This document shows, piece after piece, positions 3,462-34,266 of a DNA stretch of 43,704 nucleotides (positions are counted from its first letter, which is position 1; each line of letters begins with the position of its first letter). The stretch is from NCBI GenBank assembly GCA_017626325.1, contig JAGAIZ010000013.1, positions 1 through 43,704 on the forward strand, written 5' to 3'. The notes beneath the pieces were generated by a model that saw only the letters and a list, made by a program, of their open reading frames with translations, made no database searches and was not told the DNA's origin. A program made the translations under genes and the position numbers. This DNA comes from Lachnospiraceae bacterium (GTDB lineage: Bacteria; Bacillota; Clostridia; Lachnospirales; Lachnospiraceae).

Positions 3462-5078
3462 CTACTTAACTAAATCCATCGGATCGATGAGACACTCTAA
3501 CAGAACGGATTCGTCCTTCGCCAGAAATTCACGGATCACATCCTGTGCGCCCGCCATCGTTTCAAGCCGCATGAATTTCATATCATAGGCGGCGGAAAGC
3601 TTCTCTAAGTCGGGACTGCCTGACAAATCCACCACGGAATAGTTGTCCTTATAGGTATAGTGCTGGTATTCGCGCACCATGCCGAGATAATTGTTCTTCA
3701 GCACGATAATCTTCACAGGCACTTTAAACTGGCGCATGGTGGCAAGCTCCATCATAGACATCTGGAAGGAGCCGTCGCCGCAGACCGCAATAACCTGCTT
3801 CGACCGGTCCGCCAGTTTAGCGCCCATAGCCGCCGGAATGGAATACCCCATAGTTCCCATACCGCCTGTCGTCAGGAATTTACCCTGCTTCACGACATGA
3901 TAGCCGCAGGACCAGATCTGGTTCTGTCCCACATCCGCCACATAGACCGCGTCCTCTTCCATCTCTTCCGAAAGCATTCTGATGAATTTCGCCGGGTCCA
4001 CATAGTCGGGATTAGGCTTTCTGACAGGCTCCATCGTATCGCGGTAACCGTTTAAGGTCTCGATCCAGGCCTCGTAACTGCCGGCAATCTCTTCCTTCTC
4101 AATGTCCTCGAATATATGCTTCGCATCGCCTACCAGGGGAATGGCGGGTCCTACGTTCTTGCCAATTTCCGCCGGATCAACGTCGATATGGACGAGCACC
4201 TTATTCTCCGTAATCAAATCCGGTTGGTTGACCGCGCGGTCCGCGACCCTTGCGCCCACCATAATCAACAGGTCAGACTCATTCATGGCGCGATTGGCAT
4301 AGGGCTTGCCGTTATTCCCCACCATACCGTAGTACATAGCGTGTCTGGTAGGCATCGCGCCGATTCCCATCATGGTAGACACCACGGGGATGCTGTACTT
4401 TTCCGCAAAAGCCCTGAGCTCCTTTTCCGCATCGCTTAACAGTACGCCGCCGCCTGCGCAGATTAACGGCCTTTTGGCCTTATTCAGTTCTTTAACGACC
4501 TTCTTAATCTGTACCGCATTGCCCTTTACCGTAGGCTTATAGGTACGCAGTTTCACTTCCTCGGGATATTTGAATTTGGTAATCGCCGCATTCTGAATGT
4601 CAATCGGCACATCGATAAGCACCGGGCCTTTTCGGCCTGTGCTGGCAATGTGGAACGCCTCTTTGAATACTCTCGGAATATCGTTTGCATCTTTAATCAG
4701 ATAGCTGTATTTTACGAAGGATTCCACCGCCCCCGTAATATCCGCCTCCTGGAATACGTCAGAGCCGATCAGCTCGCTGTTGACCTGACCCGTAATGCAC
4801 ACCAACGGAATGCTGTCCGCAAAAGCCGTGGCGATACCGGTAATCAGGTTAGTCGCGCCGGGACCGGAGGTCACCGCACACACGCCCACCTTACCGGACA
4901 CTCTTGCCAGTCCGCTTGCCGCATGAGCCGCATTCTGCTCCGTGCGGATTAATATTGTCTGAATATCGGATTCCAGAATGCTGTTATAAAAGGGGCATAT
5001 CGCCACCCCCGGATATCCGAATACATATTCAACGCCCTCTTCCTCCAGGCATTTTACCATTGCGTCTGCACCTAACAT
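3462..5078 (-). CDS. ilvB: acetolactate synthase large (catalytic) subunit
   Basis: IlvB is the thiamine-diphosphate enzyme that condenses two pyruvates, or pyruvate and 2-oxobutyrate, in the first common step of branched-chain amino acid synthesis. The 538 residues show the usual three domains: the N-terminal pyrimidine-binding domain with the catalytic Glu in IRTEQNAAHAASG, the central domain, and the C-terminal domain with the ThDP/Mg motif GDGSFQMSMMELAT followed by KNNYLGMVREYQ. I chose the ATG at 5078 (MLGADAMVKCLEEEG, with AGCAGG upstream) because the frame further out (to 5126) has only a TTG start and would run into metH. It starts 37 nt after the metH stop and is followed by the two small subunits. 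Confidence 0.95.
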   Translation of the reverse strand: MLGADAMVKCLEEEGVEYVFGYPGVAICPFYNSILESDIQTILIRTEQNAAHAASGLARVSGKVGVCAVTSGPGATNLITGIATAFADSIPLVCITGQVNSELIGSDVFQEADITGAVESFVKYSYLIKDANDIPRVFKEAFHIASTGRKGPVLIDVPIDIQNAAITKFKYPEEVKLRTYKPTVKGNAVQIKKVVKELNKAKRPLICAGGGVLLSDAEKELRAFAEKYSIPVVSTMMGIGAMPTRHAMYYGMVGNNGKPYANRAMNESDLLIMVGARVADRAVNQPDLITENKVLVHIDVDPAEIGKNVGPAIPLVGDAKHIFEDIEKEEIAGSYEAWIETLNGYRDTMEPVRKPNPDYVDPAKFIRMLSEEMEEDAVYVADVGQNQIWSCGYHVVKQGKFLTTGGMGTMGYSIPAAMGAKLADRSKQVIAVCGDGSFQMSMMELATMRQFKVPVKIIVLKNNYLGMVREYQHYTYKDNYSVVDLSGSPDLEKLSAAYDMKFMRLETMAGAQDVIREFLAKDESVLLECLIDPMDLVK

Positions 5079-28015: not shown

Positions 28016-28462
28016 TCATAGTTCCTTCATATTGCGCAGAATTGACAGATCATATTCCCTCTGCTCTTCTACCGCTTTGGATAAGTATTTTTCAATCGCC
28101 TTGACAAATTGCTGTCCCTTCTTATAATATTCCACAGCGCTTTCTTTGGGCACAGGGAAGAAATCCTTGTAATCACAGTCATATTGTATTTGGAAAGCAT
28201 CCTCAATATATTGATAATATTCCTCCTTCATCATTCCCGTCAAAATATACGCTCTTCTAAAATAATCGATCACGCCTGTCTGTTTATTGAAGTCCACAAG
28301 ATCTAACGCCAGCATGGCCCGCAATGCCGAAAACATCGCATAATAGGAACGCCCAATGGAATCTCTGTAATTTCCGGCGTCCAGCAAGAGCTTCGCCGCG
28401 CGAATCCTTTCCTTTGCTGTATTCAGACGGTCGTCTATTAATTCTTTTTGATAATCAGGCAC
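28016..28462 (-). CDS. HEPN-domain protein, orphan
   Basis: The 148-residue helical protein matches the HEPN family of COG1895 type (RIRAAKLLLDAGNYRDSIGRS, YYAMFSALRAML; QFVKAIEKYL near the end). Such proteins are usually encoded beside a minimal nucleotidyltransferase (MNT) as a toxin-antitoxin pair. Here no MNT gene is present on either side, and the RX4-6H RNase motif of active HEPN toxins is absent from the conserved helix (RSYYAMF). The start is a GTG at 28462 directly after an in-frame TAA. A TATAAT at 28571-28566 may be its -10 box; the IS66 element begins 34 nt upstream of it, so original upstream sequence may be lost. Confidence 0.85.
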   Translation of the reverse strand: MPDYQKELIDDRLNTAKERIRAAKLLLDAGNYRDSIGRSYYAMFSALRAMLALDLVDFNKQTGVIDYFRRAYILTGMMKEEYYQYIEDAFQIQYDCDYKDFFPVPKESAVEYYKKGQQFVKAIEKYLSKAVEEQREYDLSILRNMKEL

Positions 28463-29128: not shown

Positions 29129-30850
29129 ATGCACATGGATTTTGAAACAGCATCCATACTCCAGTACCGGAACCGCAGCCTGACAAGGCAGTTAGAAGCC
29201 TTTCAATCCGGCGAAAAGTATATCCAGATGGAGGCGGCATATAAAGAACTCCTGCGTTTCCACCACCGGGAGATAAAAAGGCTGGAATACGAACTGTCCA
29301 GGGCCCACAGCGAAACGGTCACCGTGCGCAGATACTGGGGAGAGGTCATGGATGACGTTTATAGAGAACAGCAGGCACTGGAAAGGCGCCTGCTGTTACA
29401 GATCGAACGCCTGAAAAAACAGAACCTTGCACTTGCCATGCAGCGGGATGCGGCCATGGACAAGCTCCGTGAGCGTACACAGCAGTACTATGCCGTGGCG
29501 GCTGAACTGGAAGAGGAGCGCGGAAAGAACAAAAAGCTGACGGCACAGGTCAACAGGGATTTTGAGAATTCCTCCCTCCCGTCATCTCTTCAGAGGGCAG
29601 GAAGGAAGAAGATAGCAAACAGCCGGGAAAAGACGGGGCGCAGACCAGGCGGACAGCCCGGCCATAAAGGCCATGCCCGCAAAAAACATGTGCCGGATAT
29701 AACGCATGAGATACCGTCCCCGGCAGAATACACAGAAAGCCCGGACTATTATGAGACCGGAAAGACCATCCGCAAACAGAAGGTCTGCATCAGGCTGGGA
29801 GTGGAAGTGATCGAATATACTGCCAGGGAATACCGGAACAGAAAGACCGGGGCGCGGGTGCACGCCCCTTTCCCGGAAGGCTTTATAAATGAGGTCAATT
29901 ACGATGGGACAGTAAAGGCGCTGGCATTCCTGCTTGGGAACGAGTGCTGTGTCTCCCATGGAAAGATACGGAAACTTCTCGCCGAGCTGACAGAGGGCAG
30001 GGTCTTGCTCTCAGACGGCATGATAAACGGGCTGTGTGCAGAATTCAGTGCGAAAACGGAAAAGGAGAAAAAAGAGATCCTGAAAAAACTGATGGCATCC
30101 CCTGTCATGAACGCAGATTTTACAAACGCATCCGTCAATGGGAAAAGCGCGCAGGTGCTTGTACTGGCATCGCCGTCAGGGAATGCCGCGCTGTATATAG
30201 GCAGGGAGAAAAAAGGGCATGCAGGAGTCAGGGGCACCCCGCTGGAAGACTATGTGGGAACGGTAGTACATGACCACGACAAAACCTTTTACAGCTATGG
30301 GACCGGCCATCAGGAATGCATACAGCATGATATCCGTTATCTGACCGGGAGCATACAGAACGAGCCGGAGCTGACATGGAATGGGCAGATGCTCTCGCTG
30401 TTCCGGGAAATGCTGCATTACCGTAACGGACTTCCGGAAGGCATACAGGCAGACCCGCGGGTTGTTTCCGGATTTGAAACGGAATATGACAGGATCCTGA
30501 AAAAAGCGGAAGCTGAATATGCGGACGAACCGCCAAATGATTACTACAGGGAAGGATATAACCTGTTTATAAGGCTGCGGGAGTACAAAGAAAATGAACT
30601 TCTGTTCCTGCATGATACGAGGGTGCCTGCCAATAATTCCCTGTGCGAAAGGCTGGCAAGGGTATACAAGAGGAAGCAGAAACAGGCGGTCACTTTGCGC
30701 AGCTATGAGAACCTGTGTTATATCTGTGACAGCTTGAGCGTGGTATACCTGCTGCGCGCGGGTGGCGAAAATGTATACCAGAAGATTTCTGAAATATATG
30801 AACGGAAGCGTCCGCCAAGAGCAAACGAGGAAGCCGGTGCTAAAGCCTAA
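29129..30850 (+). CDS. IS66-family transposase (TnpC type)
   Basis: The 573-residue DDE transposase has a long N-terminal coiled coil (about 1-155), then the IS66 hallmark GRRPGGQPGHKGH (about 170-182) and the catalytic core. Likely DDE residues are D330 (MNADFTNAS), D382 or D384 (VVHDHDKTFYSYG) and E507 (NNSLCERLARVYKRKQKQ). The usual zinc-finger Cys motifs between the hallmark and the core are not obvious. It starts with ATG at 29129 after AAGGAGG and is intact, so the element may be active. The C-terminus is a short basic tail. Confidence 0.93.
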   Translation: MHMDFETASILQYRNRSLTRQLEAFQSGEKYIQMEAAYKELLRFHHREIKRLEYELSRAHSETVTVRRYWGEVMDDVYREQQALERRLLLQIERLKKQNLALAMQRDAAMDKLRERTQQYYAVAAELEEERGKNKKLTAQVNRDFENSSLPSSLQRAGRKKIANSREKTGRRPGGQPGHKGHARKKHVPDITHEIPSPAEYTESPDYYETGKTIRKQKVCIRLGVEVIEYTAREYRNRKTGARVHAPFPEGFINEVNYDGTVKALAFLLGNECCVSHGKIRKLLAELTEGRVLLSDGMINGLCAEFSAKTEKEKKEILKKLMASPVMNADFTNASVNGKSAQVLVLASPSGNAALYIGREKKGHAGVRGTPLEDYVGTVVHDHDKTFYSYGTGHQECIQHDIRYLTGSIQNEPELTWNGQMLSLFREMLHYRNGLPEGIQADPRVVSGFETEYDRILKKAEAEYADEPPNDYYREGYNLFIRLREYKENELLFLHDTRVPANNSLCERLARVYKRKQKQAVTLRSYENLCYICDSLSVVYLLRAGGENVYQKISEIYERKRPPRANEEAGAKA

Positions 30851-31822: not shown

Positions 31823-32341
31823 ATGGGAGCAAAGGAAAAGCAGGCGTATAAGGATATCAAGGCGGGGAAGCGTGAACCTGTGGGGACTGAAAAAGGCTGG
31901 TTGAACATGAAGCCTCTGACGGAGAGGCCAGAGGAAGAAGCAAGGGCGATCAGACAGAAGGCCGCAGAGGCTACACACCGGATTAAAGCAGCCAAAAAGA
32001 ACATGAAGGAAGAGCTTTTAGCAATGCTGGATGATGAGGAGATCGCAAAAGCACTGGCAAAGGAAGTGGACATAACGGCGATACGCGCGTTAGCACAGGA
32101 GAAAGGCACAAGCCTGCAAACTCTGATATTAGCCTCAATGGGGCTACAGGCTATCGCTGGCAACGTGAAAGCGGCTGACTTCGTGAGAGATACGGCAGGG
32201 TATAAGCCTACAGACAAGCAGGAGATCGTAGCGGATATCATGACCGATGCAGACCGTGCGCTGCTTGAGAAAGTGAGCCGCAGAATAACGGGAAACCGTA
32301 CAGAATCAGGTGTGAAAGATACTTCGGAAGAGTCCGAATAG
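31823..32341 (+). CDS. candidate phage terminase small subunit
   Basis: The 172-residue helical protein precedes the large terminase and resembles small phage proteins in that position (IAGNVKAADFVRDTAGYKPTDKQEI). A small terminase recognises the packaging site and stimulates the large subunit. There is no obvious HTH, but a helical region (about 50-75) could oligomerise. I chose the ATG at 31823 (GAGGTG upstream) over an 11-codon longer frame. It is separated from the large subunit gene by an unusual 422-nt structured gap. The assignment relies partly on position. Confidence 0.65.
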   Translation: MGAKEKQAYKDIKAGKREPVGTEKGWLNMKPLTERPEEEARAIRQKAAEATHRIKAAKKNMKEELLAMLDDEEIAKALAKEVDITAIRALAQEKGTSLQTLILASMGLQAIAGNVKAADFVRDTAGYKPTDKQEIVADIMTDADRALLEKVSRRITGNRTESGVKDTSEESE

Positions 32342-32763
32342 GCAAAAATGCCGTAAAATCAATGTTTTTCCCATTCTTGGGTGTGCGCGAAACGTTTGTT
32401 TCGCGAAGAGTTGTGGAGAGGCGTATGGTTTGCATATACGGGTGCGCGAGTTCAGGTAAGCGCATTTTGGGGCGTGGGTGCATCAGAGAGGGGCGGATTT
32501 TTTCCTGTCTGTTCTCCGGCGTTCTGCCGGGACCGGGTATAGGATGCCGCCACCCACCCCCACCGCCGCGCGCGGCTGGCAGTGTGTTACCACCCATAAG
32601 CCTGTCAGAAAATTTTATGATTTTTTCCTAGATGGTGATATACAAGGTTCGATTCCTTGTACTAGGATTTTCCTTCTTTGACTTGCGTGGCATTTTGCCA
32701 CCTCCTTTAGCCTCTAGGACGATTCTGTTAAGGACGGTGCGAGACCGTCCGGAGGTATTCGAC
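32342..32763 (+). ncRNA. highly structured 422-nt intergenic element between terS and terL, with a tRNA-like minihelix
   Basis: No gene fits this stretch. It holds: a perfect 8-bp hairpin at 32386-32405; CGTAT/ATACG (32422-32440); TGCGC/GCGCA (32443-32464); a long helix of about 15 bp between 32469-32484 and 32543-32561 that encloses a perfect CCGGC/GCCGG hairpin (32516-32530); a 12-nt GC palindrome (32565-32576); a minihelix at 32627-32666 with CCTAG/CTAGG stacked on TACAAGG-TTCGATT-CCTTGTA, the T-arm consensus of tRNA; GTGGC/GCCAC (32687-32701); and GGACGGT/ACCGTCC (32732-32750) immediately before the terL ribosome site. ACCTCC (32700-32705) can mask that site. It may be a phage non-coding RNA, a terL control element or a packaging site. 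Confidence 0.5.
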
Positions 32764-34266
32764 ATGACTGTGTCAGAACTTAGAGAACATGAAATTGCAT
32801 ATTGTAAGAACCACATTGAGTATTTCATTGACACTTACGGGCACATTGAGGTCAAGGACGCAGACGAGATCATCCAGCCATTTCATATGTGGCAGGCGCA
32901 GCGGGAAGCGCTGGCGTCTATCATGTCACACCGGCTGAATGCGATTTTGAAAGCGAGGCAGCTAGGCTTTTCATGGATTGTGATGCATATTGCAGCGCAT
33001 CAGGTCCTCTGTGCAAGAGGTGCCACAGCAATAGGTTTGTCAAAGACTGAGGAAGAAGCAAAAGAGCTTGTCAGACGTCTCGGCGTCATTCTGACATGGA
33101 TGCCGGAACTGATAGCGGACAAAGACCATCTTCCTCCGGGATGGGACGGTCCGGTATTCAGACAGACCGCGCTTGAGATTAAGATTACTTTTCCTGACAA
33201 GTCAGAAAGTGTATTTAAGGCGTTCCCATCTTCACCCGGTGCGGGACGTTCCTTTACGGCAAATCTGATCATTTTTGATGAATGGGCATTTCAGCAATTT
33301 GCGCGTGAGATATGGCAGGCGGGATTCCCGACAATCAACCGCCCAAGCGGCGGGCGGGTTATCGGGCTGTCGACCATCCAGAGGGGTACGTTGTTCGAAG
33401 AAATATTCACGGATCCTGACAATGGGTTCAATAAGATTTTTATACCGTGGTACGCTGATCCGTCGCGGGATGATGTCTGGTATGAAAACACCAGGCGTAC
33501 GCTGGGGGACCTGATATCTGACGAGTATCCGGCGACAGTGGAAGAAGCGCTGATGGTGCCGGGAGGCTCGTATTTCCCGGAGGTCAAAAGGGAGACACAC
33601 GAAACGGACATCCCCCTGATGGGGAAATTGAGACGGTATGTGGCGATTGACTATGGGCTTGACATGCTGTCAGCGCATTGGGTATGGGTTGACGTCACAG
33701 GCAGGGCACAGGTGTACCGTGAATATGACTGCTCCGATCTGACAGTGTCGCAGGCGGCGGAGGTGCTGCTCAAAATCACGGCAGACGAATATGTAACTGC
33801 ATGGCTGGCGCCGCCGGATCTGTGGAACAGGCGTCAGGAAACCGGTAAATCCGTGGAGCAGATATTTGCGGAGCACGGCATAATACTGACAAAGACGTCG
33901 AACGATCTGTTTGACGGGTGCATGGGGATAAAAGAGTGGCTGAGAGTCCCGAAGAATGAATTTGGCGAGCAGACAGACGAACCGGCACTGACATTTTTGA
34001 AAGACTGTGCACCGAACCTGATACGGTGCCTGCAGAAGATACAGAAGGATAAAAACAAGCCCAATGTATATTCCAAAACGCCCCATGAGCTGACACATGA
34101 CGTGGATTCGCTCAGATGTTTTTGCGTCTGGTGGGTGAAAGCGCCCAAGGAAGAGCGCACGGTGGAAAAACGGAAGTGGCGGGCTGATCTTATTGAGGAT
34201 TATAAGAACGCAAGTAAAGAGATTAAGGCTTTGATGATAAAAGAGCTTGGAGAACCAGTGTTATGA
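32764..34266 (+). CDS. terL: phage terminase large subunit
   Basis: The 500-residue packaging motor cuts concatemeric DNA and drives it into the prohead. The ATPase part has a Walker A-like K63-A-R65-Q-L-G-F-S70, Walker B LIIFD172-E173 and the coupling motif GLSTIQRGT. The C-terminal RNase H-like nuclease shows the acidic residues D296 (YVAIDYG), the PPDLWNRRQ segment, and D446/D448 (THDVDSLRCF). I chose the ATG at 32764 with GGAGGT 8 nt upstream; a 44-codon longer frame would translate the structured gap. Its stop overlaps the portal start (ATGA). Confidence 0.94.
   Translation: MTVSELREHEIAYCKNHIEYFIDTYGHIEVKDADEIIQPFHMWQAQREALASIMSHRLNAILKARQLGFSWIVMHIAAHQVLCARGATAIGLSKTEEEAKELVRRLGVILTWMPELIADKDHLPPGWDGPVFRQTALEIKITFPDKSESVFKAFPSSPGAGRSFTANLIIFDEWAFQQFAREIWQAGFPTINRPSGGRVIGLSTIQRGTLFEEIFTDPDNGFNKIFIPWYADPSRDDVWYENTRRTLGDLISDEYPATVEEALMVPGGSYFPEVKRETHETDIPLMGKLRRYVAIDYGLDMLSAHWVWVDVTGRAQVYREYDCSDLTVSQAAEVLLKITADEYVTAWLAPPDLWNRRQETGKSVEQIFAEHGIILTKTSNDLFDGCMGIKEWLRVPKNEFGEQTDEPALTFLKDCAPNLIRCLQKIQKDKNKPNVYSKTPHELTHDVDSLRCFCVWWVKAPKEERTVEKRKWRADLIEDYKNASKEIKALMIKELGEPVL

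Follow-up and report, generated by a model that had tools for sequence, protein, structure and literature searches.

A conserved DNA element between a terS-like gene and terL of a Lachnospiraceae prophage as a probable terminase recognition and cutting site

Introduction

Only a small number of phages have had their packaging sites established, and many others are known solely as prophages or contigs, whose genome ends are hard to map. The locus described here, a gap between a putative small terminase gene (terS) and the terminase large subunit gene (terL) of a Lachnospiraceae prophage, is comparable with GOLLD and ROOL, which are large non-coding regions of phages, and differs from them in having neither an Rfam match nor a conserved RNA fold. 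It is also unlike the lambda cos site in position, as the latter lies before terS. As a DNA site of multiple parts, lambda-type cos (cosQ-cosN-cosB) is otherwise similar in the excerpted text of its source (PMC6092414).

A composite site at terS is likewise described for the pac of SPP1 and SF6 (pacL-pacC-pacR; PMC6316719 and PMC4737164, both as excerpts), where the SPP1 terS protein binds regions flanking the cut (PMC6316719) and bent DNA has been proposed to be selected (PMC4737164). In SPP1 the pac site extends over the promoter, the ribosome-binding site and the beginning of the coding sequence of gene 1, whereas the site in our prophage follows the terS stop and consists of other sequences. 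For the LUZ24-like Pseudomonas phage tf, the ends were mapped experimentally and a core GATATCcc was proposed, with a G/C-rich block and then GATATCCC at the cut, according to the excerpted report (PMC3517423). By eye, this core resembles the (A/G)TATATCCCC of several relatives of our prophage, but the tf genome end lies about 760 nt upstream of terS and not between terS and terL. The ends of Listeria phage B054 were set aside as not comparable, its terS starting 26 nt from the start of the record. No described element of the present kind was recognised in the literature searched, subscription papers being mostly outside its scope.

Results

The window, by which we mean the whole 43,704-nt stretch that was analysed, is the entire contig 81 of an 88-contig assembly, so that the remainder of the prophage is outside view. 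Its end is formed by the late region of the prophage, in the order terS-like gene (31823..32341, + strand), gap, terL (32764..34266, + strand; phrog_2, E 4.1e-30), portal, a weakly scaffold-like protein, capsid and virion genes. An IS66-type transposase gene (29129-30850) and, to its left, a HEPN-domain gene (28016-28462) lie between the host genes and these late genes. The gene-free gap measures 422 nt (32342-32763), from the stop of the terS-like gene at 32341 to the homology-supported ATG of terL at 32764, from which relatives whose contigs cover the start align at TerL residue 1-7. A second in-frame ATG is found inside the gap at 32632, and mechanical open reading frames of 89 aa (+ strand) and 119 aa (- strand) overlap it.

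The gene directly 5' of the gap is putatively assigned as terS from its position. Its product matches phrog_2412, a family of unknown function, and its AlphaFold model is all-helical, with one BFVD fold match, to an uncharacterised viral protein, and none in the PDB at E 0.001. Among 31 members of the family, a weak DUF5681 match was obtained in one and KGG in four, and neither the family nor the fold searches pointed to a named TerS.

A TerL search of IMG/VR yielded 141 relatives, of which the best 80 were used; 77 of these reach the terL start and, together with the window and the prophage of Lachnoclostridium sp. An196 (G320, locus L088, the same prophage as L016), give 79 usable loci. Close TerL relatives were found in one of 397 genomes of the bacterial family (G320) and in four GTDB genomes, An196 included, while isolate phages offered no relative covering 80% of TerL and only short sequence matches at chance level. 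A terS-like homologue was located at the same place in 65 of the 79 loci, a count that includes the window as well as both L088 and its duplicate L016. Across the lineage, compact members have a non-coding gap of about 300-480 nt, which reaches up to 2.9 kb in members where genes intervene. The sequence-only reading had rightly recognised a real gap, as well as hairpins that are present in the sequence, but such a gap is not unexpected within its own lineage, where most relatives have one. An origin as a decayed gene was set aside, since relatives retain a non-coding stretch at the same place. At the nucleotide level the gap had zero matches in 50,697 phage records and six in the 397 family genomes, namely the window itself and five of 24-37 nt. 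One string just 3' of the terS stop, AAATGCCGTAAAATCAA(T/C)G (32346-32371), also occurs in L082, L083 and L084, which are three of these five matches and come from other genomes of the family, where neither a terS nor a terL match adjoins it, and GTAAAATCAA is also found in the relatives L007 and L039.

The gap contains a conserved A/T motif at 32590..32631, with core CCTGTCAGAAAATTTTATG at 32601-32619, which scores 29.7 in a position-weight matrix (PWM) search against at most -8.6 in five shuffles. In the lineage this motif (GAACCCATATTCCCGCTAGAAAATTTTATAAAAAAATCAAAT) was recovered from 70 of the 79 loci. Of the 65 loci whose terS-like gene was located, 64 have it, the exception being L004; eight of the 14 loci without terS are also without the motif, L051 among them falling just under the cut-off. 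The motif stands 224-395 nt from terS (median 270, sd 45; n=61) and -8 to 2573 nt from terL (sd 626; n=61), statistics that exclude L013, L014 and L072, all three of which are kept in the count of 64. The tight spacing on one side and the loose spacing on the other indicate that the element belongs to terS, to which it is anchored, and that the slot 3' of it takes cargo. Taken alone, the window may be read as carrying a translational control element for terL; against this, the element keeps to terS even where terL is as far as 2.6 kb away. Separately, a potential pairing across 32700-32756, between ACCTCC (32700-32705) and the ribosome-binding GGAGGT of terL (32751-32756) around a 7-bp hairpin (32732-32750), is a possible translational control of terL.

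The A/T motif is preceded in relatives by a C-run, which in the window (CCACCCACCCCCACC) occupies 32549..32577 together with a GC palindrome. In 29 aligned phages of one clade, selected by us from the 64 motif-bearing loci, the distances between the C-run, the GGGAAC box and the AAATTTT box are constant to 1-2 nt and the intervening sequence is variable. The ATA-CCC segment of the window (CATAAGCC) departs from the family. In several members (A/G)TATATCCCC or ATATACCCCC stands, by eye, at one and the same position with respect to the A/T motif. The PWM scan detected no motif before terL in L130, the most distant GTDB relative (TerL 46%), nor any in L231, L232, L183, L184 or Sinorhizobium phage phiM5; the scores of L129 and L185, 2.2 and 2.4 respectively, exceed those of 20 shuffles and are far under the threshold of 14.

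Most phages of the lineage also carry, 5' of the A/T motif, an inverted repeat with consensus AWCTATTCGNNAAA-N6-TTTNNCGAATAGWT, whose 6-nt spacer is variable in sequence and whose distance to the motif ranges from 132 to 319 nt. In the window it is found as a single copy at 32379..32412 (0.30 copies expected by chance at up to two mismatches), with 14-nt arms around the spacer CGTTTG (32393-32398). This copy is a variant of the family form, with a perfect inner 7 bp (CGCGAAA/TTTCGCG, 32386-32405) and a right half-site closer to the consensus than the left. At up to two mismatches the pattern occurs at one place per record in 14 of 24 records and is without a match in the other ten. Across 53 copies, 587 of 742 pairs are complementary, a figure inflated by the copies having been picked for complementarity, compared with 153-238 after one arm had been shifted by 1-3 nt; in most phages, shuffled gaps gave lower best repeat scores than the real ones. 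Mismatches amount to 20 G-T, 34 A-C and 101 others, with position 4 especially free. The 53 copies exclude L013, L014, L070, L072, L078 and L088, as well as the near-duplicates L009, L011, L019, L044 and L080; L070 and L072 have no clear inverted repeat and L078 has an imperfect one.

A late promoter or operator region, serving terL or the cargo genes, would account for the likeness of the A/T motif to a -10 box and for operator-like repeats that lie 3' of it in one clade. We regard it as improbable given the variable distance between repeat and motif, and given that in L071, L075, L079, L080, L016 and L013 the terL start inferred from alignment falls -8 to 14 nt after the motif, which leaves scarcely any leader. 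Operator-like repeats, CGCTTTAGCGNACTAAAGT or, in other phages, a paired GTGTAAACACC, stand right after the A/T motif and 5' of the cargo genes in L024, L030, L035, L039, L057, L059, L062, L076 and others.

The core site of a tyrosine recombinase consists of inverted arms flanking a 6-8 bp spacer, and the inverted repeat has this layout. It could represent a Cre-lox- or dif-like recombination core that circularises or resolves phage genomes beside the packaging site, a proposal favoured by arms that reach 14 bp and flank a variable 6-nt spacer, by the single place per record wherever the pattern matches at up to two mismatches (14 of 24 records), and by a tyrosine recombinase in 18 of 20 records (15 above the Pfam cut-off). 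The An196 prophage speaks against it: it sits in the 3' end of a tRNA-Gly gene (L125, L091; G320:C12:28846 and 73466), with a 23 bp repeat, GGGTTCGAATCCCGTCTCGTGCT, at both ends, and its 437-aa integrase-like ORF lies beside the left end, by this attachment site, whereas the terS-terL site is internal. Furthermore, L013 retains the repeat though its integrase appears by eye unrelated to the others, and in Mantel tests on 17 phages the repeat tracks TerL, TerS and Int, and only a weak link to Int persists once TerL is held fixed (r 0.15, p 0.048). On balance we hold a recombination core to be unlikely. An integrase attP was rejected for the repeat as the site is internal in both the window and An196, a question that the Mantel tests do not decide. 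The An196 prophage also encodes, just 5' of terS, a second tyrosine recombinase (364 aa; L016, G320:C12:49890-50984) and a possibly truncated serine recombinase.

The sequence-only reading had considered an undescribed RNA, with GOLLD and ROOL as the nearest idea and a long-range helix of about 15 bp among the helices. The window does fold better than its shuffles on the + strand (z -3.34), and it contains numerous local hairpins, both in keeping with a GOLLD/ROOL-like or new RNA that forms part of the late transcript of the phage. The - strand, however, folds better still against its shuffles (z -4.83), so that the signal is not specific to an RNA strand. In 26 phages selected by us from the 64 motif-bearing loci the excess is alike on the two strands (mean z -1.43 and -1.58; on either strand nine of the 26 fall below -2), which is what DNA palindromes would produce. 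The RNAalifold consensus of 29 core sequences comprises only three pairs at -0.61 kcal/mol and hence no common RNA fold, and the 53 inverted-repeat copies show no excess of G-U wobble pairs; neither a strand-specific excess nor G-U-tolerant covariation was observed. The long helix, formed by the C-run and upstream sequence, does not exceed shuffles in the window (p 0.54), and of 63 phages one has p<0.05. Finally, the Rfam scan that the same reading had suggested gave zero matches at the gathering threshold in the window and 13 relatives, which leaves GOLLD and ROOL without support. We thus consider a large structured RNA very improbable and the gap most likely a DNA element, and caution that DNA palindromes, rather than an RNA, can be the source of a strong fold seen in a single phage gap sequence.

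A tRNA-like minihelix at 32627..32667 (+ strand) consists of an acceptor-like stem (TCCTAG 32627-32632, CTAGGA 32662-32667) with a T-arm stacked on it (TACAAGG 32641-32647, loop TTCGATT 32648-32654, CCTTGTA 32655-32661), without D or anticodon arm. This feature of the earlier reading proved real: the fold accounts for 0.81 of the ensemble, and the presence of a T-loop and stem by our criteria exceeds chance, control sequence of 396,363 nt containing three of them (an expectation of about 0.003 for 422 nt), although the folding excess is modest (z -2.35; 4 of 200 shuffles equally good). The minihelix lies 3' of the conserved element, in the cargo slot before terL. Contents of that slot differ from phage to phage and include proteins that, from their sequences, we take to be ArpU/RinA-like, N6-methyltransferase-like, acetyltransferase-like, nuclease-like, virion-type and tail-fibre-like; in L068 (2378-4318), a 646-aa gene that is tail-fibre-like by eye fills the slot.

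ARAGORN called no tRNA in the window, where no complete cloverleaf was found. L060 carries complete tRNA-Gln and tRNA-Cys genes between the A/T motif and terL (1746-2214), and L129 carries in the same slot (3920-3990) an acceptor stem, an anticodon arm (TGT) and a T-arm without a D-arm, which we read as tRNA-Thr-like, which ARAGORN did not call and whose minimum-energy fold differs. The simplest reading is that the minihelix is probably the relic of a captured tRNA gene. A functional tRNA mimic, acting as an RNase P/Z substrate or as a translation element, would agree with the 13-bp coaxial helix, near the acceptor-plus-T-arm length of a tRNA, and with the reduced (L129) and complete (L060) tRNA-like sequences at the same place. 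That alternative seems unlikely to us, as among 80 gaps scanned the T-arm criteria retrieve only the window and L060 (and miss L129), CCA is not encoded, no second copy was found in the window's own genome (92% complete) at up to three mismatches, and IMG/VR contains no exact 23-nt match. The lack of a second genomic copy within the same limits also led us to reject the T-arm as a host tRNA fragment or attachment site; the attachment site of the An196 prophage is tRNA-Gly, at the prophage ends.

The A/T motif is associated with terminase genes in unrelated phages. Searching all of IMG/VR for the pattern CCNTCAGAAAATTTTATAAA returned ten stretches, nine of them in the terS-terL interval of the lineage (seven known contigs and two new) and the tenth, L174, in an unrelated place. 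The degenerate pattern CNCTMVMAAATTTTATAWAAA returned 39, of which 32 are upstream of terminase genes; ten belong to the window lineage, 20 to a marine group, two to a third group (L167 and L172) and seven lie elsewhere. TerL is encoded within 3 kb, downstream and on the same strand, in 31 of the 39 (L169 has terS only), against a reversed-pattern control with TerL within 3 kb in two of 20 and downstream on the same strand in none, a control that is not symmetrical and favours the motif set, the nine TerL queries having included TerLs of all three groups. The patterns were built from the window's own lineage, and contigs within a group are not independent, the 20 marine ones being interrelated. 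The TerLs of the three groups have no mutual BLASTP similarity (E 0.32 to 1.6).

In the marine group, whose TerL matches phrog_38, the motif precedes terS and does not follow it as in the window lineage; in the 19 contigs where a terS-like ORF matched, 146-284 nt separate the motif from this ORF downstream of it. The ORF has no PHROG match and its identity is positional. In L167 the motif is placed between terS (phrog_1482, a named small terminase) and terL, 31 nt before the latter, and L172 is a second such contig that begins after terS. The inverted repeat is absent from L167. The isolates nearest the two other groups (HTVC027P, HTVC023P, DSL-LC04, MW202496 and MW202711) gave no match above threshold. 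What was found is a conserved DNA element fixed to terminase genes, as looked for in a packaging site.

A comparison with an annotated genome end is offered by the third group, whose TerL shares 71.6% identity with the TerL of Sinorhizobium phage phiM5; the phiM5 TerL is not itself BLASTP-similar to that of the window, and the two are compared through L172. The phiM5 record annotates direct terminal repeats, the right one ending in ...CCCCCCCCCGCCCTCCCCTCGGGCTGGGGGCAGCGCATATATC (...CATATATC), 56 nt after a short hypothetical ORF and 36 nt before the annotated terL start. This terminus is like our element in lying between a short ORF, terS-like by position, and terL, and in following a C-run; it differs in that the A/T motif (which scores below shuffles) and the inverted repeat are absent. 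The parallel is thus limited to position and C-run, and for that reason our confidence in a packaging site was lowered slightly. Contig ends were also inspected as a trace of cutting: going by coordinates, no end of the 41 terS contigs falls in the 2.1 kb that follow the terS match, and only three terL contigs (L015, L045 and L051) start within 80 nt before the motif, without clustering.

Discussion

Overall, we consider the element in the gap to be probably a terminase recognition and cutting site on phage DNA, although with clear room for doubt. The suggestion of a packaging-site structure, one of three in the sequence-only reading, is the one that our data support, as a site in DNA rather than RNA. 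We infer that the site would be bound and cut, and by which protein, from sequence comparison: the terminase, formed by the terS product and TerL, would dock at the element on replicated phage DNA and cut there, so that packaging begins or terminates. The inverted repeat would be bound by a DNA-binding protein of the phage, the most natural candidate being the terS product, whose own gene ends just 5' of the repeat, and the terminase would be positioned on a module of C-run, ATA-CCC and A-tract/T-tract located 130-320 nt beyond. TerL would then cut at this C-run/A-T module, with the predicted cut just before or within the A/T motif, and packaging would proceed; the resulting ends might be pac-like, cohesive or short direct terminal repeats. 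The slot between the site and terL would collect cargo genes, in this prophage what is probably a tRNA-gene relic.

A broader proposal, which we put forward tentatively and with distinctly less confidence, is that a recurrent and undescribed terminase-site grammar marks the place of the cut in unrelated tailed phages. Its parts would be a C-run, a variable G/C block, ATA-CCC and an A-tract/T-tract, joined here by a single terS-proximal 14-6-14 inverted repeat. The occurrence of the motif beside terminase genes in three TerL groups provides a testable sequence rule for where packaging starts, and the element also delimits a slot adjoining the site in which cargo is acquired. If the proposal is true, genome ends and packaging starts would become readable from prophage and metagenome sequence, with no need for virions.
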